DNA of 64,000 nucleotides from Clostridia bacterium (GTDB lineage: Bacteria > Bacillota > Clostridia > Oscillospirales > Acutalibacteraceae): contig JAFQVY010000010.1 of the NCBI GenBank assembly GCA_017407755.1, positions 124,001-188,000 of the forward strand, given 5' to 3'. The position numbers and the translations under genes are program-made. Position 1 is the stretch's first letter. Each line of letters begins with the position of its first letter. Below are positions 832-9,452 of this stretch, in pieces. The notes below the pieces were generated by a model that was not told the DNA's origin, did no database searches, and saw only the letters and a list, made by a program, of their open reading frames with translations.

Positions 832-1233
832 TTACTGCTGACTTGAGTCGATTCTGTAAATGTTTTGGGAATCAATATCAATGTTGGGAATGATAATAGG
901 CTTAATACCTGCATTAGCAGTAACTGTTGTAACCAAAGCCTTAACATAAGGGTAAAGAATCTTAAAGCTTTCTGTATGAATCATTTCCTTTGTTGCACCG
1001 GGTGCATAGGAAAAAATACCAACAACAACTACTTTGATGTTAAGCTTCTTGTCCTCAGATGTGTCACCGGTTTCTACTTCAAACTCGCCGCGGCAAACAT
1101 TGCCCTGACCGTCTTTAGGGTACTTAACATTGTAAGAAAATTTATTACCGATTTTAATTTGCATATTTGGGTCCAAACGGTTAAAAAAGTTAATATCTGA
1201 AACTGTATAAGCCTTAAGCTCACAACAAGCCAT
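832..1233 (-). CDS. SecB-like protein-export chaperone
   Basis: A 133-residue cytosolic protein. The C-terminal half matches the SecB family (PF02556). It has a beta strand with GIFSYAPG, then FKILYPYVKALVTTVTANAG and KPIIIPNIDID, which corresponds to the family pattern of an FPYARELIS-type helix followed by an FPPLNLPPI-type strand. SecB tetramers hold unfolded preproteins. In Firmicutes classical SecB is usually missing, and SecB-like proteins are sometimes toxin-antitoxin chaperones, but no toxin gene is adjacent here. GAGGAG precedes the ATG. The gene is divergent from the secreted dockerin protein, each with its own promoter. The family call is good; the client is unknown. Confidence 0.75.
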   Translation of the reverse strand: MACCELKAYTVSDINFFNRLDPNMQIKIGNKFSYNVKYPKDGQGNVCRGEFEVETGDTSEDKKLNIKVVVVGIFSYAPGATKEMIHTESFKILYPYVKALVTTVTANAGIKPIIIPNIDIDSQNIYRIDSSQQ

Positions 1234-1346: not shown

Positions 1347-1375
1347 TTGCTTTTCTACTCGTATAGTAGTATAAT
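1347..1375 (+). promoter_or_regulatory. sigma-A promoter of the dockerin protein gene
   Basis: TTGCTT (1347-1352) and a perfect TATAAT (1370-1375) are spaced by 17 bp. The leader to the ATG at 1423 is about 40 bases and ends in AGGAG. Confidence 0.78.
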
Positions 1376-1422
1376 GAACAATGCAGTTTGTTCTGTAAAA
1401 ATTATGTTAGGAGATGAATTCT

Positions 1423-2271
1423 ATGAAAAACCAGTTCGCAAAAATCGTTGCAGTTCTCATGGTTCTTGCTATGGCTGTATCCGTTTTTGGTCTTTGCGCT
1501 TCTGCTGCAGAGGAAACAACTGAGGCTCAGGTAGCTCTTTTAGGTGACGTAAACCTCGACGGTAAGGTTACAATTCAGGACGCTACTCTCGTTCAGAAGG
1601 CTATCGCTAAGCTCGCAACTCTTGATGAGGTTCAGACAGCTGTTGCTGACGCTTTCGAAGATGGCACTGTTAACGTTAAGGACGCTACAGCTATCCAGAA
1701 GTGGATTGCTAAGTTCGAGGACGCTAACCAGAACATCGGCAAACCCCTCGGTTCTACCAACGATGAGGCAACACCTGAGGAGTCTACTCCCGAAGAGTCC
1801 ACACCTGAGGAGTCTACTCCCGAAGAGTCCACACCTGAGGAGTCTACACCTGAGGAAGCTACAAAGGATGAGGACGTTGTAGATCCTTCTACAAAGGACG
1901 AGGAAACTCCTGTTGAGCCTGAAGTTCCTGCAACAGAGGAAGAAGCAACTAAGGATCAGGCTACTGTTGACGAGCCCACAACTACTTACAACGTAGCAGG
2001 TGAGGAAGGTCTTTGTGGCATAGGTTGGGATCCTGCTGCTAACCAGATGACTTATGACGGCGACGGTACATGGAGCATTACTTTCACAGGTATTGCTGCA
2101 GGCACATACCAGTTCAAAGTTGTTGAGGGCGGCGCTTGGGGCAACCCCGACTACAACCTCGAAGGTTTAGCAAACAGCAGCGGTAATGCAAATATCACTG
2201 TTGAAATCGACAACGCTACAGTTGTTATCGGCTTCGACGGCGAGAAGGCTGTTATCGAGTCTATTGCTTAA
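1423..2271 (+). CDS. secreted dockerin-linker-X25-like protein (candidate amylosome component)
   Basis: A 282-residue exported protein. Residues 1-28 are a signal peptide with cleavage likely after CASA. Residues 39-99 are a type I dockerin-like pair: the first calcium loop (D42, N44, D46, G47, D53) is canonical, while the second (D76, D80, G81, D87) is degenerate with F78 at a ligand position. Residues 110-188 are an acidic Thr/Pro/Glu linker containing TPEES repeats. Residues 189-282 form a beta domain with GWDP, GDGTWS, AGTYQFKV and a WGNPDYN segment, resembling the X25 modules of pullulanases and of Ruminococcus bromii amylosome proteins. There is no catalytic domain, so a structural or starch-binding role is inferred. 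The ATG at 1414 abuts AGGAG with no spacing, so 1423 is preferred. Codons are strongly biased like those of the ribosomal genes here, which suggests high expression. Confidence 0.75.
   Translation: MKNQFAKIVAVLMVLAMAVSVFGLCASAAEETTEAQVALLGDVNLDGKVTIQDATLVQKAIAKLATLDEVQTAVADAFEDGTVNVKDATAIQKWIAKFEDANQNIGKPLGSTNDEATPEESTPEESTPEESTPEESTPEESTPEEATKDEDVVDPSTKDEETPVEPEVPATEEEATKDQATVDEPTTTYNVAGEEGLCGIGWDPAANQMTYDGDGTWSITFTGIAAGTYQFKVVEGGAWGNPDYNLEGLANSSGNANITVEIDNATVVIGFDGEKAVIESIA
1771..1860 (+). repeat. 30-bp tandem repeat encoding the TPEES linker
   Basis: Two identical 30-bp units (1771-1800 and 1801-1830) and a diverged third (1831-1860) each encode two TPEES pentapeptides, the last ending TPEEA. 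Near-identity at DNA level suggests recent expansion and possible length variation between strains. Confidence 0.88.
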
Positions 2272-2289: not shown

Positions 2290-2319
2290 AACGGAGCTGA
2301 TATTTTTCAGCTCCGTTTT
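2290..2319 (+). terminator. terminator of the dockerin protein gene
   Basis: An 11-bp stem (2290-2300 with 2307-2317) has a 6-base loop and a short T-run. It lies 18 bases past the stop and only 10 bases before tRNA-Ala. Confidence 0.78.
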
Positions 2320-2328
2320 CCTTTATAC

Positions 2329-2404
2329 GGGGGCGTAGCTCAGTTGGTAGAGCGTTCGGTTCGCATTCGAAAGGTCGAGAGTTCAAATCTCTTCGTCTCC
2401 ACCA
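2329..2404 (+). tRNA. tRNA-Ala (anticodon CGC)
   Basis: Acceptor GGGGGCG pairs with CGTCTCC and includes the G3:U70 wobble that identifies tRNA-Ala. The anticodon loop carries CGC (codon GCG). The discriminator is A and CCA is encoded. There is no room for a promoter between the upstream terminator and the tRNA, and no terminator before the next gene, so it may depend on readthrough and be cut from a longer transcript. Confidence 0.93.
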
Positions 2405-2426: not shown

Positions 2427-4028
2427 ATGGGTAAAAAGCTTAAAAACTATAAAAATTACTTTATAAATTTAATATGCCCTGCTTTTATATTTGGTTCAAT
2501 TACAGGCGTACTTACAGCGATTGTTATCGTTCTTTACAAGAAATGTGCAAGTATTATTATTGGTTTTTCCGAAAGCGGTTATTCTTTTGTAAAGAGCAAC
2601 CTTTATTACGCCCCCTTGGTTTTAATTGGATTTATCCTTCTTGCTCTGCTTTTGTCTTTTCTTTATAAAAAAGCTCCTAACCTTAAAGGCGGCGGTATCC
2701 CAACATCAATTGGTATAATCAGAGGAGTATTGCCCTTCAAGTGGTTTACAAACCTTGTAGGAGTGTTTTTCCTTTCTCTTACTTCGTTTTTTGTTGGTGT
2801 TCCATTAGGTAATGAAGGTCCCGCAGTACAAATGGGTACTTTGCTTGGCAGAGCAAGTGTTTCACCTCTGTTAAAAAAACACAGAGCTTGGAGCAGATAT
2901 TCAATGACCGGCGGTGCTTGTGCAGGCTTTTCAGTTGCCACAGGTGCTCCTGTGTCGGGTATAGTTTTCGCTCTCGAAGAAGCCCATCAAAGCTTCTCGC
3001 CAATGATTATGATTGTTGCCTCAACCTCTGTAATGTTTGCACACATCACAACTGAGGTGTTATCGCTTTATTTCAATATAAATGTAAGGCTTTTTCATCA
3101 GCTGAATTTCCCCGCATTTCGTATTCGTGATATATGGATGCCTGTTGTTGTAGGCATTTTCGTGGGAATTCTTGCAGTGCTTGTCCTTAAATATTATAAG
3201 CTCATAAGCACTTTCATCAACAAAAAGCTTTCTTTTATACCTCTGAAATATAAGATTTTTGCTATTTATACATTTACATTCGTTGCAGGAATGTTTTCTT
3301 TTTCTTTTGTTTCTACAGGCCACCATCTGATTGAGGATTTGCTTATTTCATCTCCCTCATTTGTAATGCTTTTAGCAATACTTTTAATCAGGACAACCCT
3401 TACTTTTTCGGCAAACTCCAGCGGTATTACAGGTGGTCTTTTCCTGCCGATTATGGCTTTGGGAGCAACCTCCGCTTCAATAGTGGGAAAGGGGCTTGTT
3501 CTTGCAGGAGTAGACGAAAAATATTACACTTTAATCGTTGCTTTGGGTATAACCGCCTGCATTTCCGGTATGATGAAAACCCCCTTTACCGCGATGGTTT
3601 TCGCAATTGAAGCACTTTCTTGCAGCGGATATATTCTTCCTGTAATTGTAGCTTCCTGTGTTTCTTATGTAATTACAGAAATGCTTGACGTAAAATCGAT
3701 TACCGATATCGCTCTCGAAAACACCATAGAAAGCCTCTACCATTCGAAAGAACATGAGGTTTATGATACTTTTGTAAAAGTTAAATCAAACTCCTTTGCC
3801 GTTGGCAAGCAAATCAGAGATATTCTCTGGCCTAATAATCTCTTTGTGCTTTCTGTTAAAAGCAAAGATAGTCAGGCTGAGGTTGACGTTCGCGGTTCTA
3901 AACAACTAAAGGCAGGAGACGTTCTTCATGTTCGTTATATGACTTATAGCGAGCCTGACACAAAGGAAGAGCTCATTTCCATTGTAGGCGTGCAGGATTA
4001 TGATGAGCATATTGATACCATTATATAA
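2427..4028 (+). CDS. ClC-family chloride/proton antiporter with C-terminal RCK_C-like domain
   Basis: A 533-residue membrane protein. ClC selectivity motifs are present: GGGIP (88-92), GNEGP (128-132, with E130 as the gating glutamate) and a GGLFLP stretch near 350. FALEE (171-175) matches the internal proton glutamate, so both glutamates that mark exchangers rather than channels are kept. Residues from about 450 to 533 form a soluble beta-alpha domain like TrkA-C/RCK_C rather than the CBS pair common in other ClCs. The start follows GAGAGGGA. It lies 22 bases after tRNA-Ala with no terminator between them. The likely role is chloride or pH homeostasis. Confidence 0.88.
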   Translation: MGKKLKNYKNYFINLICPAFIFGSITGVLTAIVIVLYKKCASIIIGFSESGYSFVKSNLYYAPLVLIGFILLALLLSFLYKKAPNLKGGGIPTSIGIIRGVLPFKWFTNLVGVFFLSLTSFFVGVPLGNEGPAVQMGTLLGRASVSPLLKKHRAWSRYSMTGGACAGFSVATGAPVSGIVFALEEAHQSFSPMIMIVASTSVMFAHITTEVLSLYFNINVRLFHQLNFPAFRIRDIWMPVVVGIFVGILAVLVLKYYKLISTFINKKLSFIPLKYKIFAIYTFTFVAGMFSFSFVSTGHHLIEDLLISSPSFVMLLAILLIRTTLTFSANSSGITGGLFLPIMALGATSASIVGKGLVLAGVDEKYYTLIVALGITACISGMMKTPFTAMVFAIEALSCSGYILPVIVASCVSYVITEMLDVKSITDIALENTIESLYHSKEHEVYDTFVKVKSNSFAVGKQIRDILWPNNLFVLSVKSKDSQAEVDVRGSKQLKAGDVLHVRYMTYSEPDTKEELISIVGVQDYDEHIDTII

Positions 4029-4029
4029 G

Positions 4030-4064
4030 AAAATCACCTGAGATTAATTCTCAGGTGATTTTTT
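4030..4064. terminator. bidirectional terminator between convergent genes
   Basis: A 14-bp perfect stem (4030-4043 with 4049-4062) has a 5-base loop and T/A runs on both sides. The stop codon of the minus-strand flavoprotein lies in the loop. Confidence 0.85.
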
Positions 4065-5624
4065 CGTCATAATCATTTCTGCACATTTAATTCCGTCAAC
4101 CGCCGCAGAAACTATTCCTCCTGCATATCCTGCACCTTCGCCGCAAGGGTATAGTCCTTTTATATTAATAGCTTCAAGATTCTCGTCTCGTACAATTCGC
4201 ACAGGTGACGAGCTTCTTGTTTCAGCCGCAGAAAGAATAGCATCCTCAGCGTTAAATACCGACATCTTTCTTGCAAAAGCCGAAAGTCCGTCTTTAAGTC
4301 CGCTGTTTATAAATTCGGGGAAAATCTTTTCTATCTTAGTAAGATTATATCCGGGTTTTATAGAAGGCTTTACACTGCAAACCTTGTTATCAGCACCTTT
4401 AAGAAAACTTCCCACAGTTTCAATAGGAGCGTTATAATTCTTGCCGCCATTTTCAAAGGCATTTTTTTCAATACTACGCTGAAGCTCAATGCCTGCAAGG
4501 GGAGAGGAGGACGAGAAATCTTCGGGATATACACTTACAAGCACAGCCGAATTTGAGTTTTCGCCGTTTCTTCTGCTATAGCTCATACCGTTGGTGCAAA
4601 GTAAACCTTCTTCGCTTGAAGCGTTTACTACCACTCCGCCGGGACACATACAGAATGTATAAACACCCCTGCCTGAGGTGGCTTTAGCGTTAAGCTTATA
4701 GTCGGCAGTAGGCAGCTTTGAGGCGAAACTTCCATATTGACATTTGTTGACATCTTTAGCCTTGTGCTCAATTCTTACGCCTATAGAAAAGGGCTTTTGC
4801 TGTAAAACAACGCCCTTATTTAAGAGCATTTCAAAAGTGTCTCTTGCACTGTGACCTATAGCCAGCACTACGTGTTCGGTCTCAATAACGCTGTCTCTGT
4901 TTACTGTTACGCTTTTAATTTTTCCGTCTTTTATGTTAATGTCCGTAACCGCAGACTCAAACATAAAGCTTCCGCCCAAAGCAATAATCTCTTTGCGGAT
5001 ATTTTTGATAACGTTTTTCAATACATCTGTGCCGATATGAGGCTTTGCGTTTATAAGGATGTCTTCCTGTGCGCCAAACTCTACAAAGGTTCTCAAAACA
5101 TGCGTTGCTCTGCTGTCGTTGGTGCCTGTGTTAAGCTTGCCGTCAGAAAAAGTACCGGCGCCGCCTTCGCCAAACTGTATGTTTGAGCTTGTGTTTAATA
5201 AAGCGTATTTAAAGAAAAGCTCAACATCTTCGCTTCTTTTGTCAACGTCTTTTCCACGCTCAAGTACAATAGGCTTTGCACCGAACCTTACTAAAGTCAA
5301 AGCTGCAAATAATCCTGCTGGGCCGCTTCCGACAACCACAGGCCTTTCTTTTATTTCCTTTGTAGGATTAAAGCTATACCTGTATGGCTTAAACTGTTCA
5401 ACATTAGAATTTTTACCGATTATCTTACTTTCGTTTACATTAAGCGTTGCAGTAACAGTAGCGTTATAATAAACATTGTCTTTTTTTCTTGCATCAATGC
5501 TTATTCTATGAATCCTGTAGCTTTCGATACTTTGTTCATTGATTTTTAAGTTTTTTATAAGTGCATTTTTTATATCATTGCCCGTATATCCGACAGGCAG
5601 TTTTAAATTTGTAACTTTAATCAT
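4044..5624 (-). CDS. FAD-dependent oxidoreductase (COG2509 type)
   Basis: A 526-residue protein. About 90 N-terminal residues form a small domain, followed by a dinucleotide-binding motif GSGPAGLFAAL and a long FAD domain with FGEGGAGTFSDGKL near 150. The end carries PCGEGAGYAGGIVSAAVDG, the usual second FAD contact. This matches the uncharacterised FAD-dependent dehydrogenases of COG2509, whose substrate is unknown. The ATG overlaps the stop of the upstream flavoprotein as ATGA, so the two are translationally coupled. Transcription ends at the bidirectional hairpin at 4030-4064. Confidence 0.85.
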   Translation of the reverse strand: MIKVTNLKLPVGYTGNDIKNALIKNLKINEQSIESYRIHRISIDARKKDNVYYNATVTATLNVNESKIIGKNSNVEQFKPYRYSFNPTKEIKERPVVVGSGPAGLFAALTLVRFGAKPIVLERGKDVDKRSEDVELFFKYALLNTSSNIQFGEGGAGTFSDGKLNTGTNDSRATHVLRTFVEFGAQEDILINAKPHIGTDVLKNVIKNIRKEIIALGGSFMFESAVTDINIKDGKIKSVTVNRDSVIETEHVVLAIGHSARDTFEMLLNKGVVLQQKPFSIGVRIEHKAKDVNKCQYGSFASKLPTADYKLNAKATSGRGVYTFCMCPGGVVVNASSEEGLLCTNGMSYSRRNGENSNSAVLVSVYPEDFSSSSPLAGIELQRSIEKNAFENGGKNYNAPIETVGSFLKGADNKVCSVKPSIKPGYNLTKIEKIFPEFINSGLKDGLSAFARKMSVFNAEDAILSAAETRSSSPVRIVRDENLEAINIKGLYPCGEGAGYAGGIVSAAVDGIKCAEMIMTKKSPEN

Positions 5625-6835
5625 AATGCGCTCGCCGCCAAATATGCTGTTGCAAAGGCGAAATGCAGGTTAAAGCCACCGCAGTCGCCGTTGCAGTCAA
5701 GAGCTTCTCCAATTACATAAAGCCCCTTGATTTTCTTGCTTTCCATTGTATTTGCATCAATTTCGTCACCCTTAACTCCGCCTTTTGTTACTTGGGCGTC
5801 GCTTAGGTCCTTAACACCCAAAACCTCAAAATCCAATGAGTTAAGCTTGCTTGCAATAGCTTTTATTTCTTTGTCAGAAATATCCCGTGCCTTCTTGTTT
5901 AAAGAAACCTTCGCATCCTTCAAAACAATCTGAGCAACTCGTTTATGAAGCATTCCCGTCATAAGATTTTCGGCATCAAGGGTTGAAAAAACCTCTCTGT
6001 TTCTGCAAAGTGTTTCTACCAAAGCGTTAAAATCCAGTTCAGGCATGAGCTTGATTTTTAAGATGTAGCTCTTATGTTTTTCAATATACCCTGAAAGGTT
6101 AAAAACACAAATACCCGAAAGTGCATTCTCGGTAAACTGAATTTCGCCCAACTCTTTGCGAACGCACTTGCCGTCAACTTCTAAGCCTATTTCGCCCTGT
6201 ACTCTGACGCCTTTAAGGGACTTTAGATAGTCGGACTTTACCAAAACAGGGCATAAAGCAGGGGAGGGTTTTATAACTGTATGGCCAAGATTTTTAAGTA
6301 TCTCATAGCCTGACTTGTCACCGCCTGCCTTAGGCGATGCCGCTCCTCCTGTAGCAACAATAACCTTGTCCGCAGTAAAGTTACCCTTATCTGTTGCTAT
6401 TTTAAAGAGGTTGCTTTTCTCAACACTTAAGGCTTTACATTCACAGCAAAAAGTAACGTTTTCCTTTTCAGCGTTAAATCTCAGAACATCTAAAACCGAA
6501 CTTGCCTGATTGGATTTAGGATAAACCCTGCCAAAATCATCGGCTTTGGTCATAAGTCCCATTTCGCTGAAAAGCTCAAGAACCTTATCAGAAGAACACG
6601 CTTTCAGTACTTCACCTGTATAAATCCTGAAAGTGCCGTGATAGTTTTCTTCCTTAACATAAATATTTGTAAGGTTACATCTTCCGTTTCCTGTTATAAG
6701 CAACTTTTTGCCTACTCGTTGGTTCTTTTCAATTAATATGATATTTTTATCCTTGTGGATTTTAGCGGCAAGAGCTGTAAAGAAAAGTCCTCCTGCACCG
6801 CCGCCGATAACTGCAATGTCATAATGATTTTTCAT
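5621..6835 (-). CDS. HI0933/YhiN-family flavoprotein
   Basis: A 404-residue NAD(P)/FAD-dependent oxidoreductase. It has GGGAGGLFFTALAAK at the N-terminus, the family-specific KLLITGNGRCNLTN near 50, VATGGAASPKAGGDKSGY in the middle and GEALDCNGDCGGFNLHFA at the C-terminus. Some databases name members BaiN after a bile-acid 7-dehydroxylation gene, but nothing here supports bile-acid metabolism: no other bai gene is present. It is paired with a second flavoprotein through an ATGA overlap. The function is unknown. Confidence 0.86.
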   Translation of the reverse strand: MKNHYDIAVIGGGAGGLFFTALAAKIHKDKNIILIEKNQRVGKKLLITGNGRCNLTNIYVKEENYHGTFRIYTGEVLKACSSDKVLELFSEMGLMTKADDFGRVYPKSNQASSVLDVLRFNAEKENVTFCCECKALSVEKSNLFKIATDKGNFTADKVIVATGGAASPKAGGDKSGYEILKNLGHTVIKPSPALCPVLVKSDYLKSLKGVRVQGEIGLEVDGKCVRKELGEIQFTENALSGICVFNLSGYIEKHKSYILKIKLMPELDFNALVETLCRNREVFSTLDAENLMTGMLHKRVAQIVLKDAKVSLNKKARDISDKEIKAIASKLNSLDFEVLGVKDLSDAQVTKGGVKGDEIDANTMESKKIKGLYVIGEALDCNGDCGGFNLHFAFATAYLAASAL

Positions 6836-6843
6836 ATTAACAC

Positions 6844-6875
6844 CTAAAAAATAGGGGCAATTATGAAAATTGCCC
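6844..6875 (-). terminator. terminator of the small-multidrug-export-type gene
   Basis: On the minus strand an 8-bp stem GGGCAATT/AATTGCCC (6875-6868 with 6862-6855) is followed by CTATTTTTT. The AGGTG of the next gene begins right after the T-run. Confidence 0.7.
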
Positions 6876-6883
6876 GATAAATA

Positions 6884-7450
6884 TTATAGTAAAGTAATAA
6901 GCCACGGAATACCGTAGGTTATAAATGACATAATTGCCATTGCCATAATTACGCCCAAAAGAATACTGATTACAGAGTCCTTAAGGTTAAGCTTTAAAAG
7001 CACAGCAATAAGTGCTCCTGTCCAAGCGCCTGTACCGGGTAGAGGAATTCCGACAAAAAGCAAAAGTCCCCATCTTTTGTACTTAGTAACCTTAGCAGAC
7101 TGCTTCATAGCTTTTGCTTCAATTTTATTAACAAGCTTGCCAAGGTGTTTTGTTTTTTTCATAAGATTAAAAATCTTTTCAATAAACAGAAAGATAAAGG
7201 GAATAGGCAAAACATTGCCTATAACGCTTATAATAACTGCAAGCCAGTAGTCAACACCTAAAAGGCTTGCGGCAATCATACCGCCGCGGCATTCAAGAAT
7301 AGGGAAAAGAGAAATAATAAAAACTACCAACTCAGCAGGCACTCCGCCCATAAAGCTTACAATGCTGTTTACAAGTGTTTCGGTAAAGCCTCTGCTTTCG
7401 TCTGCAGTTGCAGAAGCACTGATTGCCAAGCTTTTGATTTTACTTAACAT
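6884..7450 (-). CDS. small multidrug-export-type membrane protein (COG2426/PF06695)
   Basis: A 188-residue integral membrane protein. Its features are PILECRGGMIAASLLGV, IGNVLPIPFIFLFIE, and a downstream GIPLPGTGAWTGALIAVLL loop between predicted helices, typical of COG2426 proteins. Export activity for this family is weakly supported in the literature, so the name is a family label. An upstream in-frame ATG (7483) exists, but GAGGTG sits just before the ATG at 7450, so that start is chosen. It is divergent from the VanZ-like gene. Confidence 0.8.
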   Translation of the reverse strand: MLSKIKSLAISASATADESRGFTETLVNSIVSFMGGVPAELVVFIISLFPILECRGGMIAASLLGVDYWLAVIISVIGNVLPIPFIFLFIEKIFNLMKKTKHLGKLVNKIEAKAMKQSAKVTKYKRWGLLLFVGIPLPGTGAWTGALIAVLLKLNLKDSVISILLGVIMAMAIMSFITYGIPWLITLL

Positions 7451-7481
7451 AGCACACCTCATAGATGAAATTAACACAACC

Positions 7482-7510
7482 ATTATATAATATATTTTTA
7501 ATTTTTACAA
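7482..7510 (-). promoter_or_regulatory. sigma-A promoter of the small-multidrug-export-type gene
   Basis: On the minus strand TTGTAA (7510-7505) and TATAAT (7487-7482) are spaced by 17 bp. It lies back to back with the promoter at 7519. Confidence 0.6.
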
Positions 7511-7518
7511 TAATAAAA

Positions 7519-7547
7519 TTGACATATCACTCACAATTCGATAAAAT
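7519..7547 (+). promoter_or_regulatory. sigma-A promoter of the vanZ-like/MATE operon
   Basis: A perfect TTGACA (7519-7524) and TAAAAT (7542-7547) are spaced by 17 bp. The predicted leader is very short, so the first codons are close to the transcript start. Confidence 0.72.
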
Positions 7548-7569
7548 ATTACATAGAATGGGTGATTAT

Positions 7570-8052
7570 ATGAATTTCAAAACAAAATCCATAATATTTC
7601 TACGGATTTTACTGTCAGCTTTAACCTTGTTGCTGATAGTTTTTATTTTTTCCAATTCAGTGAAAAACGCCGAAGCTTCAAGCGAATCATCCGGCAGAAT
7701 AGTTGCTTTTTTAAACCGTATATGTACTTTGTTAGGACTGAAATTTACCTTTACTCAGCCTGTTGTCAGAACCTTAGCACATTTTTGCGAGTTTGGATTG
7801 CTTGGTGTTTTAAGTCAACTTACATTTTTAAGCTGTTTCGGTGTCAAAGTAAAAGCTATCTTATCCTCTGTATTTTTAGTAATTCTCACAGCTTTAACCG
7901 ATGAGGTTATCCAGCTTTTTTCAGAGGGCAGAGCCTTTCAGATTTCAGATTTGATAATAGATTTTTCTGGCTCGCTTTTAGGTTTAGTGGCAATCTTTTT
8001 AATTGCAATGCTAATAAATAATCATAGATTAAGAAAATCAGAAAAGGAATAA
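7570..8052 (+). CDS. VanZ-like membrane protein
   Basis: A 160-residue protein with four to five predicted membrane helices. The VanZ family (PF04892) pattern is visible as RTLAHFCEFGLLG near 60-75 and TDEVIQLFSEGRAFQISDLIIDFSG near 110-135. VanZ itself gives low-level teicoplanin resistance; most relatives have no known function, and no van resistance genes are nearby. The ATG at 7570 follows GGGTGA with short spacing; an in-frame ATG at 7558 would start almost at the predicted transcript 5' end. It is followed after 2 bases by the MATE transporter gene. Confidence 0.82.
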   Translation: MNFKTKSIIFLRILLSALTLLLIVFIFSNSVKNAEASSESSGRIVAFLNRICTLLGLKFTFTQPVVRTLAHFCEFGLLGVLSQLTFLSCFGVKVKAILSSVFLVILTALTDEVIQLFSEGRAFQISDLIIDFSGSLLGLVAIFLIAMLINNHRLRKSEKE

Positions 8053-8054
8053 TA

Positions 8055-9452
8055 ATGGAAAACGTAAAAAAATTCAGTAATACAGAACGAATGGGCACTG
8101 CTCCTGTTTTGGGGCTTATTTTTAAGATGAGTTTGCCTGCAATGTTTTCAATGCTTATACAGGCACTTTATAACGTAGTTGACAGTATGTTTTTAGGCTC
8201 TTACGGCGGCAATTCCGATGCCCTTACAGCGGTTTCACTTGCCTATCCTATGCAGCTTTTAATGGTGGCTTTTGCGGTTGGTACTGCGGTTGGCGTTAAC
8301 TCTCTGATTGCCAGAAGATTAGGCGAGGGCAGACGTAAAGAAGCCGAATACGCCGCTACCCACGGTGTGTTGCTTGCGATTGCAACTTGGGTTGTTTTCG
8401 CCCTTTTAGGCATATTTGCATCAAAACCCTTTATGCTCTTTTTAAATAGCGGAAGCGACATAATCGTTGACTACGGTACGGAGTATCTGACAATAGCACT
8501 TGTGTTTTCTTTAGGTTCATTTGTGCAGGTAATGCTTGAAAAATCCATTCAAGCAACCGGCAATATGATTTTACCCATGGCGTCTCATTTAATTGGTGCC
8601 GTTACAAATATTATTCTTGACTGGCTTTTAATATTCGGCATCGGTTTTTTCCCTGAAATGGGTGTCAGAGGTGCCGCTATTGCAACGGTCTTCGGTCAGT
8701 GGATTGCAATGTTTTTCCTTATAATTGTTCTTCTTACCAAGGACACGGGCATCAAAATTTCTTTTAAGGGCTTCAAATTTAAACTTGGTGTTATCAAAGA
8801 TATCTATAAAGTAGGCCTTTCGGGCATTGTTATGCAGGCAGTAGGTTCTCTTACAGTTGCACTTATTAACTTTATTATCAAAACCTCAGGTGCTTACGGC
8901 GGCGATGTTTCAACTGCCGCCCAGACTGTTTACGGTGTTTACTATAAGATGCAAAGCTTTGTTTTTATGCCTGTTTTCGGACTTAACCAAGGCATTTCAC
9001 CCATTATCGGCTATAACTACGGTGCAAAAATTAGGTCTCGTATGATGCAAACCCTCAGATACGCCTTGGTTATTGCCGCAACAATTATGTTTTTAGGCAC
9101 CTTCGCTTTTAACGTATTCCCCGAAGCACTTCTTAATATGTTTGGCCTTGAGCCTGATTATATAGACATTGGCATAGTAGCACTTAGAAGAATCAGCCTT
9201 TGCTTCCTGCCTGCATCTATAGGCGTTGTGTTTACAGCTCTGTTTCAGTCTGTGGGCAAGGGCATTCGCAGTCTTCTTATGTCTCTTTTAAGACAGGTTA
9301 TTCTGATTTTACCTCTTGCACTTGTCTTTTCAAGAATAGATGTAAACCTTATCTGGCTTTCTTTCCCCATAGCCGAGGTTGTAGCAACTGTTGTTGCGAT
9401 TCTCTTCTTTATTGAGCTTAACAAAAAAGATTTTTCGCGCTTGGGTCAATAA
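8055..9452 (+). CDS. MATE-family multidrug/sodium antiporter
   Basis: A 465-residue membrane protein with about twelve hydrophobic segments. Family hallmarks include LPAMFSMLIQALYNVVDSMFL at the first helix, the VGTAVGVNSLIARRLGEG loop, GVRGAAIATVFGQ mid-protein and PVFGLNQGISPIIGYNYGA in the second half. MATE proteins expel cationic drugs or metabolites using Na+ or H+ gradients. AAGGAA precedes the ATG, and the gene is co-transcribed with the VanZ-like gene. The substrate cannot be read from the sequence. Confidence 0.92.
   Translation: MENVKKFSNTERMGTAPVLGLIFKMSLPAMFSMLIQALYNVVDSMFLGSYGGNSDALTAVSLAYPMQLLMVAFAVGTAVGVNSLIARRLGEGRRKEAEYAATHGVLLAIATWVVFALLGIFASKPFMLFLNSGSDIIVDYGTEYLTIALVFSLGSFVQVMLEKSIQATGNMILPMASHLIGAVTNIILDWLLIFGIGFFPEMGVRGAAIATVFGQWIAMFFLIIVLLTKDTGIKISFKGFKFKLGVIKDIYKVGLSGIVMQAVGSLTVALINFIIKTSGAYGGDVSTAAQTVYGVYYKMQSFVFMPVFGLNQGISPIIGYNYGAKIRSRMMQTLRYALVIAATIMFLGTFAFNVFPEALLNMFGLEPDYIDIGIVALRRISLCFLPASIGVVFTALFQSVGKGIRSLLMSLLRQVILILPLALVFSRIDVNLIWLSFPIAEVVATVVAILFFIELNKKDFSRLGQ

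Follow-up and report, generated by a model that had tools for sequence, protein, structure and literature searches.

What would a gut bacterium gain from a small protein, likely to be secreted, that carries a dockerin and an X25 module and no catalytic domain? The question is raised by a gene in a 64,000-nucleotide stretch of DNA (hereafter the window) from a Ruminococcus-like gut bacterium, whose genome (G000; 1.56 Mb, 93.7% complete) has roe-deer gut MAGs as the nearest named relatives found. We put the probability at roughly 70% that its product is an amylosome subunit that is abundant, non-catalytic and serves in starch adherence. The features of the gene and its surroundings, by position in the window, are:

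835..1233, minus strand: SecB-like gene, divergent, a syntenic anchor outside the proposed mechanism (Pfam SecB 25.8 bits, cut-off 26)
1347..1375, plus strand: promoter-like element, TTGCTT, 17-base spacer, TATAAT (read from sequence)
1409..1413, plus strand: ribosome-binding site AGGAG; AGGAGATGA stands in the leaders of 9/9 genes at the locus
1423-2271, plus strand: dockerin–X25 ORF, 282 aa, with the translation that the earlier note had described
1423..1509, plus strand: signal peptide, residues 1-29 (read from sequence; residues 1-30 are identical in the orthologues L045 and L046)
1540..1701, plus strand: type I dockerin, residues 40-93 (Pfam Dockerin_1 E 2.6e-9, 37.6 bits, cut-off 22.9)
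1744..1980, plus strand: acidic Thr/Pro/Glu linker, residues about 108-186, of varying length between orthologues
1981..2268, plus strand: X25 module, residues 187-282, with W202 and W239 (Pfam match 198-271)
2290..2317, plus strand: intrinsic-terminator-like hairpin of 11 pairs (1 found versus 0.8 expected in shuffles, weak alone)
2329..2404, plus strand: tRNA-Ala(CGC), the right-hand neighbour, also present in L045 and L046

The gene stands alone, with the SecB-like gene diverging on its left and the terminator-like hairpin and tRNA-Ala on its right. A second in-frame ATG lies nine bases upstream, at 1414, but overlaps the ribosome-binding site, and 1423 is therefore the likely start. The encoded protein, which is probably secreted, comprises a signal-peptide-like N-terminus, the dockerin, the acidic linker and the C-terminal X25; no catalytic family scored over cut-off in Pfam or NCBIfam, and no second folded domain was found. 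An earlier note on this DNA had proposed a strong promoter, which holds in part: the -10 element (TATAAT, 1370-1375) is perfect and the region is conserved in the two orthologues, L045 and L046, but the -35 element (TTGCTT, 1347-1352) is weak and the promoter was absent from the list of a sigma-70 consensus scan.

To take part in an amylosome, the protein would have to dock. The Dockerin_1 match covers both repeats (profile positions 1-54 of 57) over the curated cut-off, and the best PDB sequence matches were dockerins of the R. bromii proteins Amy10 (E 4e-9), Amy16 (2e-8) and Amy12 (2.1e-6). The dockerin fold rests on these sequence matches because the full-length AF2 prediction, made from three sequences, was poor (pLDDT 46) and was set aside. 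As the earlier note had seen, one calcium loop is canonical (loop 1, DVNLDGKVTIQD) and one degenerate, loop 2 (DAFEDGTVNVKD) having Phe at ligand position 3 with the remaining ligand positions kept. Among the 47 of 49 dockerin ORFs in G000 that could be compared at both loops, with ligand sets of our own choosing, a non-ligand residue occurred in loop 2 of five and loop 1 of two; N-terminal placement of the dockerin is likewise a minority arrangement (7/49). The suggestion that asymmetric loops signal single-mode cohesin binding found no support. The recognition helices, IQDATLVQKAIAKL and VKDATAIQKWIAKF, placed according to the dockerin literature, are identical at 8/14 residues, near the G000 median of 9/14 (range 3-11), and the loop 2 ligand test was passed by six of the nine genes at the locus and failed by three (G000, L045 and G319), so asymmetric binding is not indicated, although it may still occur.

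Beyond the dockerin, the linker contains 5.7 copies of a 15-base tandem repeat (1771-1856) and leads to an X25 module that matches Pfam X25_BaPul_like at residues 198-271 (E 1.5e-9, 38.2 bits versus a cut-off of 27). Its beta-sandwich fold is like that of known X25 modules, with X25-2 of Sca5 (PDB 7rpy) as the closest solved structure and further matches to SusF and SusE. The acidic repeat linker and C-terminal X25-like beta domain reported from the letters alone are borne out, the signal peptide again being a reading of the sequence, and the profile searches that had been proposed found dockerin and X25 alike over their curated Pfam cut-offs. The long low-complexity linker does draw some weak unrelated matches, as would be expected if the domain assignments were spurious and the product no more than a secreted protein of low complexity, but the results of this analysis refute that reading, and the probability we leave it is negligible.

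Whether the X25 module touches starch is a separate matter. W202 and W239 align with the Trp pair of the second Sca5 X25 module and are invariant among 16 aligned X25s; in the comparison with the first Sca5 module, alignment is limited to the first Trp, and the other is displaced by about four residues. A tandem X25 pair with one four-Trp site was not found, the protein having a single X25. According to PMC9112005, neither maltotriose nor maltoheptaose was bound when the halves of X25-2 from R. bromii Sca5 were isolated, and Sca3 conserves only one of the tryptophans, so that X25 modules can diverge. Since isolated halves bound no maltooligosaccharides and the X25 is single here, we infer starch binding by this protein rather than assert it. 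The non-binding halves and the divergence in Sca3 would suit an X25 that serves as a structural or protein–protein module inside the complex, without starch contact. We regard this as improbable, given that both Trp are invariant in the aligned set, that SusF and SusE, besides Sca5, match in fold, and that three syntenic replacements of the module, described below, end in a CBM26-like stretch.

The remainder of the genome offers partners of the kind that a starch-adherence subunit would need. G000 has 51 dockerin matches, 49 of them over cut-off, and five cohesin matches, three over cut-off (two in whole ORFs and the third when a stretch was scanned); the search for cohesin scaffoldins in the same genome, which the earlier note had called for, therefore found candidate scaffoldin genes. 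We extracted 57 ORFs with a dockerin, cohesin or X25 match, of which 50 were domain-scanned, with the window protein scanned separately. GH13 is joined to a dockerin in five scanned ORFs; two of the five have CBM48-GH13-MucBP pullulanase-like layouts that resemble the ones given for Amy10 and Amy12 of R. bromii in PMC5814915. CBM26 scored over cut-off in fifteen scanned ORFs, while the remaining ones include CotH, BspA-type LRR, CHAP and papain-like proteins. Genome-wide, G000 has 18 GH13 matches. A cellulosome was considered and set aside: G000 has no GH9 match genome-wide, the search at that scale covering GH9 and not GH5 or GH48, and no cellulase family was reported for the 50 scanned ORFs. 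The candidate cell-surface scaffoldins are:

G000:C16:104461-108251 (L089:6465-10252): three tandem single-cohesin genes

The products of two of these genes terminate with PPTG followed by a hydrophobic stretch and then RKK, which reads as a sortase-signal-like tail. One tailed protein has an N-terminal CBM26 (Pfam) and a cohesin of 31.8 bits that appeared only when the stretch, not the whole ORF, was scanned; in the other, a profile of our own picked out a CBM26-like stretch (E 2e-7 among 57 ORFs). With a CBM26, or a stretch resembling one, at the N-terminus of two of them, the scaffoldins may themselves bind starch. Elsewhere in the genome, an ORF in L100 combines a dockerin with a cohesin match of 16 bits, and C20:39096 gave 22.2 bits, both below the cut-off of 24.1; no cohesin was reported for the whole C20 ORF. 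Both families are widespread in the genus, with cohesin matches in 99/100 sampled genomes (94 over cut-off) and X25 matches in 93/100 (83 over cut-off), against two (one over cut-off) and one (none over) among 14 named control genomes. The cohesins, dockerin–GH13 enzymes and CBM26 proteins support the proposal of a non-catalytic amylosome component, and by predicted genome content the protein would belong to an amylosome of the R. bromii type, the assembly itself being a prediction.

Codon usage suggests that the protein is also probably abundant. Against a reference of 20 ORFs from the ribosomal-protein cluster around L16, which themselves score 0.59-0.85, the gene has a CAI of 0.836, second among the 50 ORFs in the window that are 150 aa or longer (median 0.545), and the codon bias that had been noticed earlier is real. 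Of 55 scored among the 56 other dockerin, cohesin or X25 ORFs, only the two tail-anchored C16 cohesin proteins are higher (0.90 and 0.87). Synonymous sites are held in this gene, unlike in three neighbouring genes: 9/42 four-fold sites differ from L046 and 5/41 from L045, whereas the neighbours differ from L046 at 21/36, 78/142 and 52/84. High expression would follow from this bias.

The gene also belongs to a locus that recurs in related genomes. The SecB-like neighbour was found in 30/100 genus genomes, and in eight of the ten with at least 70% SecB identity, a split chosen after the list had been seen, the divergent gene encodes a signal peptide–dockerin protein (G000, G325, G369, G327, G342, G375, G363 and G319). 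Of the other two, G386 has no divergent dockerin gene and in G309 the contig ends. Among the 20 genomes whose SecB identity is 49-57%, a simple dockerin motif flagged nothing within 1.5 kb; in three of these 20 (L212, L215 and L227) the contig breaks off within 600 bases. What follows the dockerin and linker differs from genome to genome:

G000: one X25
L045 (the protein of the G325 gene; full-length orthologue from Ruminococcus sp. RGIG3852, roe deer caecum): dockerin, X25 and a second, unclassified 'YING' module
L046 (full-length orthologue from Clostridia bacterium RGIG4202, roe deer colon): dockerin, then X25 twice
G369, G327 and G342: a tail with a CBM26-like stretch at its end
G375 and G319: the YING module alone
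G363 (239 aa; L208:2099-2815): signal peptide, dockerin and repeat linker, then no module

Orthology of these genes is based mainly on position: the gene at the locus is the best match of the window protein in G325, G363, G375 and G342, which does not hold for G319, G369 or G327, and the dockerin of G319 is degenerate (Pfam E 0.13). The CBM26-like tails were called with a profile built from 15 G000 stretches (full-sequence E of 9.2e-8, 1.7e-6 and 1.8e-6 against a set of nine sequences); Pfam reported no CBM26 for them even with E values as high as 1 allowed, and a PDB search with the L205 tail returned only two antibody chains (E 0.16 and 0.76), so that their membership of the CBM26 family is weakly indicated. 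The YING module, of about 90 aa, lies at L207:378-650 (-), L210:96-398 (-) and L045:2499-2780 (+) and begins with YYxVGYINGxDY in two of the three; neither the L207 nor the L210 copy matched a Pfam family, and the single PDB sequence match for L207 had an E of 0.36. Beyond the tRNA-Ala in L045, at 3313-7285, are prophage-like genes (holin, endolysin and reverse transcriptase; PHROGs), with an Asn/Gly-rich ORF that may resemble a diversity-generating retroelement target.

Codon bias is shared across the locus, where the nine genes have CAI values of 0.78-0.87 versus 0.54-0.75 for the SecB-like neighbours, values that are approximate because the G000 reference was borrowed for all genomes except G000. 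G363, which has no module, retains a CAI of 0.864 on that reference, the best evidence for the main rival to starch adherence: a cheap, highly expressed dockerin stub that fills or caps cohesins and sets enzyme density or spacing, with the tip optional. Persistence of the dockerin and linker style while the tip varies points the same way, as does the finding that the only compared ORFs with higher CAI are the two tail-anchored cohesin proteins. However, eight of the nine genes carry a module after the linker, X25 keeps both Trp and G363 may be a secondary loss; we therefore think this rival unlikely, though less so than an X25 of purely structural use. Returning to starch adherence, we read the locus as a slot for a highly expressed dockerin protein whose starch-adhesion tip can be exchanged. 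In its fuller form this reading is tentative and more doubtful than the subunit role itself: in a sub-clade of the genus, a codon-biased dockerin and low-complexity linker would be kept beside the SecB-like gene while the tip is exchanged wholesale, giving an abundant cell-surface amylosome adaptor that acquires new tips through domain exchange when the type of starch or the host changes, or else one that mainly occupies cohesins.

Several known proteins share parts of this design. Sas20 of R. bromii, as described in PMC9112005, is likewise non-catalytic and dockerin-bearing, and it too combines a Thr/Pro linker with X25 modules that bind starch, but its length is given as 657 aa in the text and 630 aa in the table, its dockerin is C-terminal, and it has the further domain Sas20d1 and two X25s in tandem that together make one site, whereas the present protein has 282 aa, an N-terminal dockerin and one X25. 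It is accordingly an amylosome-type dockerin protein with X25, not a Sas20. Sca5 supplies, in X25-2, the closest solved structure and the matching Trp pair of its second module, but is a scaffoldin with cohesins, a sortase sequence and X25s in tandem. Doc8 (245 aa) and other R. bromii 'Doc' proteins are also small, secreted and dockerin-bearing; the same source lists Doc8 as SP-DUF-Doc, with the dockerin last and no X25 listed, and reports it from washed cells, among EDTA-eluted proteins. Within G000, the 621-aa paralogue L094:3880-5742 has a dockerin and an X25 64% identical over query residues 175-281, in reversed order (another N-terminal region, X25, repeat linker, C-terminal dockerin). 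It adjoins a second ORF (5895-8243, 782 aa; together L094:3880-8243) that starts much alike. In G100, of another genus in the same family, L132:1348-1860 encodes a 170-aa signal peptide–single X25–membrane tail protein without a dockerin motif, hence a lone X25 anchored differently. Our searches of an open-access library yielded Sas20 (PMC9112005) and no prior account of a dockerin–X25 protein at such a slot; new here is a predicted dockerin gene in the same place in related genomes with differing tips.

The computed modules, fold, Trp pair, genome partners, codon bias and conserved locus can be assembled into a mechanism as follows. The protein would be secreted, and its N-terminal type I dockerin, with calcium, would bind a cohesin of the cell-surface scaffoldins at C16:104461-108251, the particular cohesin being conjectural. 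The long acidic linker would extend the C-terminal X25 outward, where it would touch starch through its two conserved Trp. Because one X25 is half of the R. bromii four-Trp platform, weak binding per molecule is expected, and strength would come from number, a large set of cohesins each holding a copy next to CBM26 modules; tip exchange would be the source of variation at the locus. Against this explanation we count the Sca5 X25-2 halves without maltotriose or maltoheptaose binding (PMC9112005), the misaligned second Trp of the first Sca5 module, loop 2 being one ligand short, the two X25s of L046 and the added module of L045, as if one were insufficient, the tipless G363, the poor AF2 model and the cohesin of one anchored scaffoldin that is seen only as a stretch.

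As of a five-strain comparison of R. bromii, amylosome organisation had been shown only in strain L2-63 (PMC5814915). Here an amylosome is predicted in a 1.56 Mb genome, with a minimal dockerin–X25 protein among its most codon-biased parts. This protein provides a small construct for a question left by the work on Sas20, namely whether a lone X25 can bind starch once a scaffoldin carries it in many copies, and the differing tips at one locus would form a natural series of proteins in which the dockerin context is common and the binding module varies.
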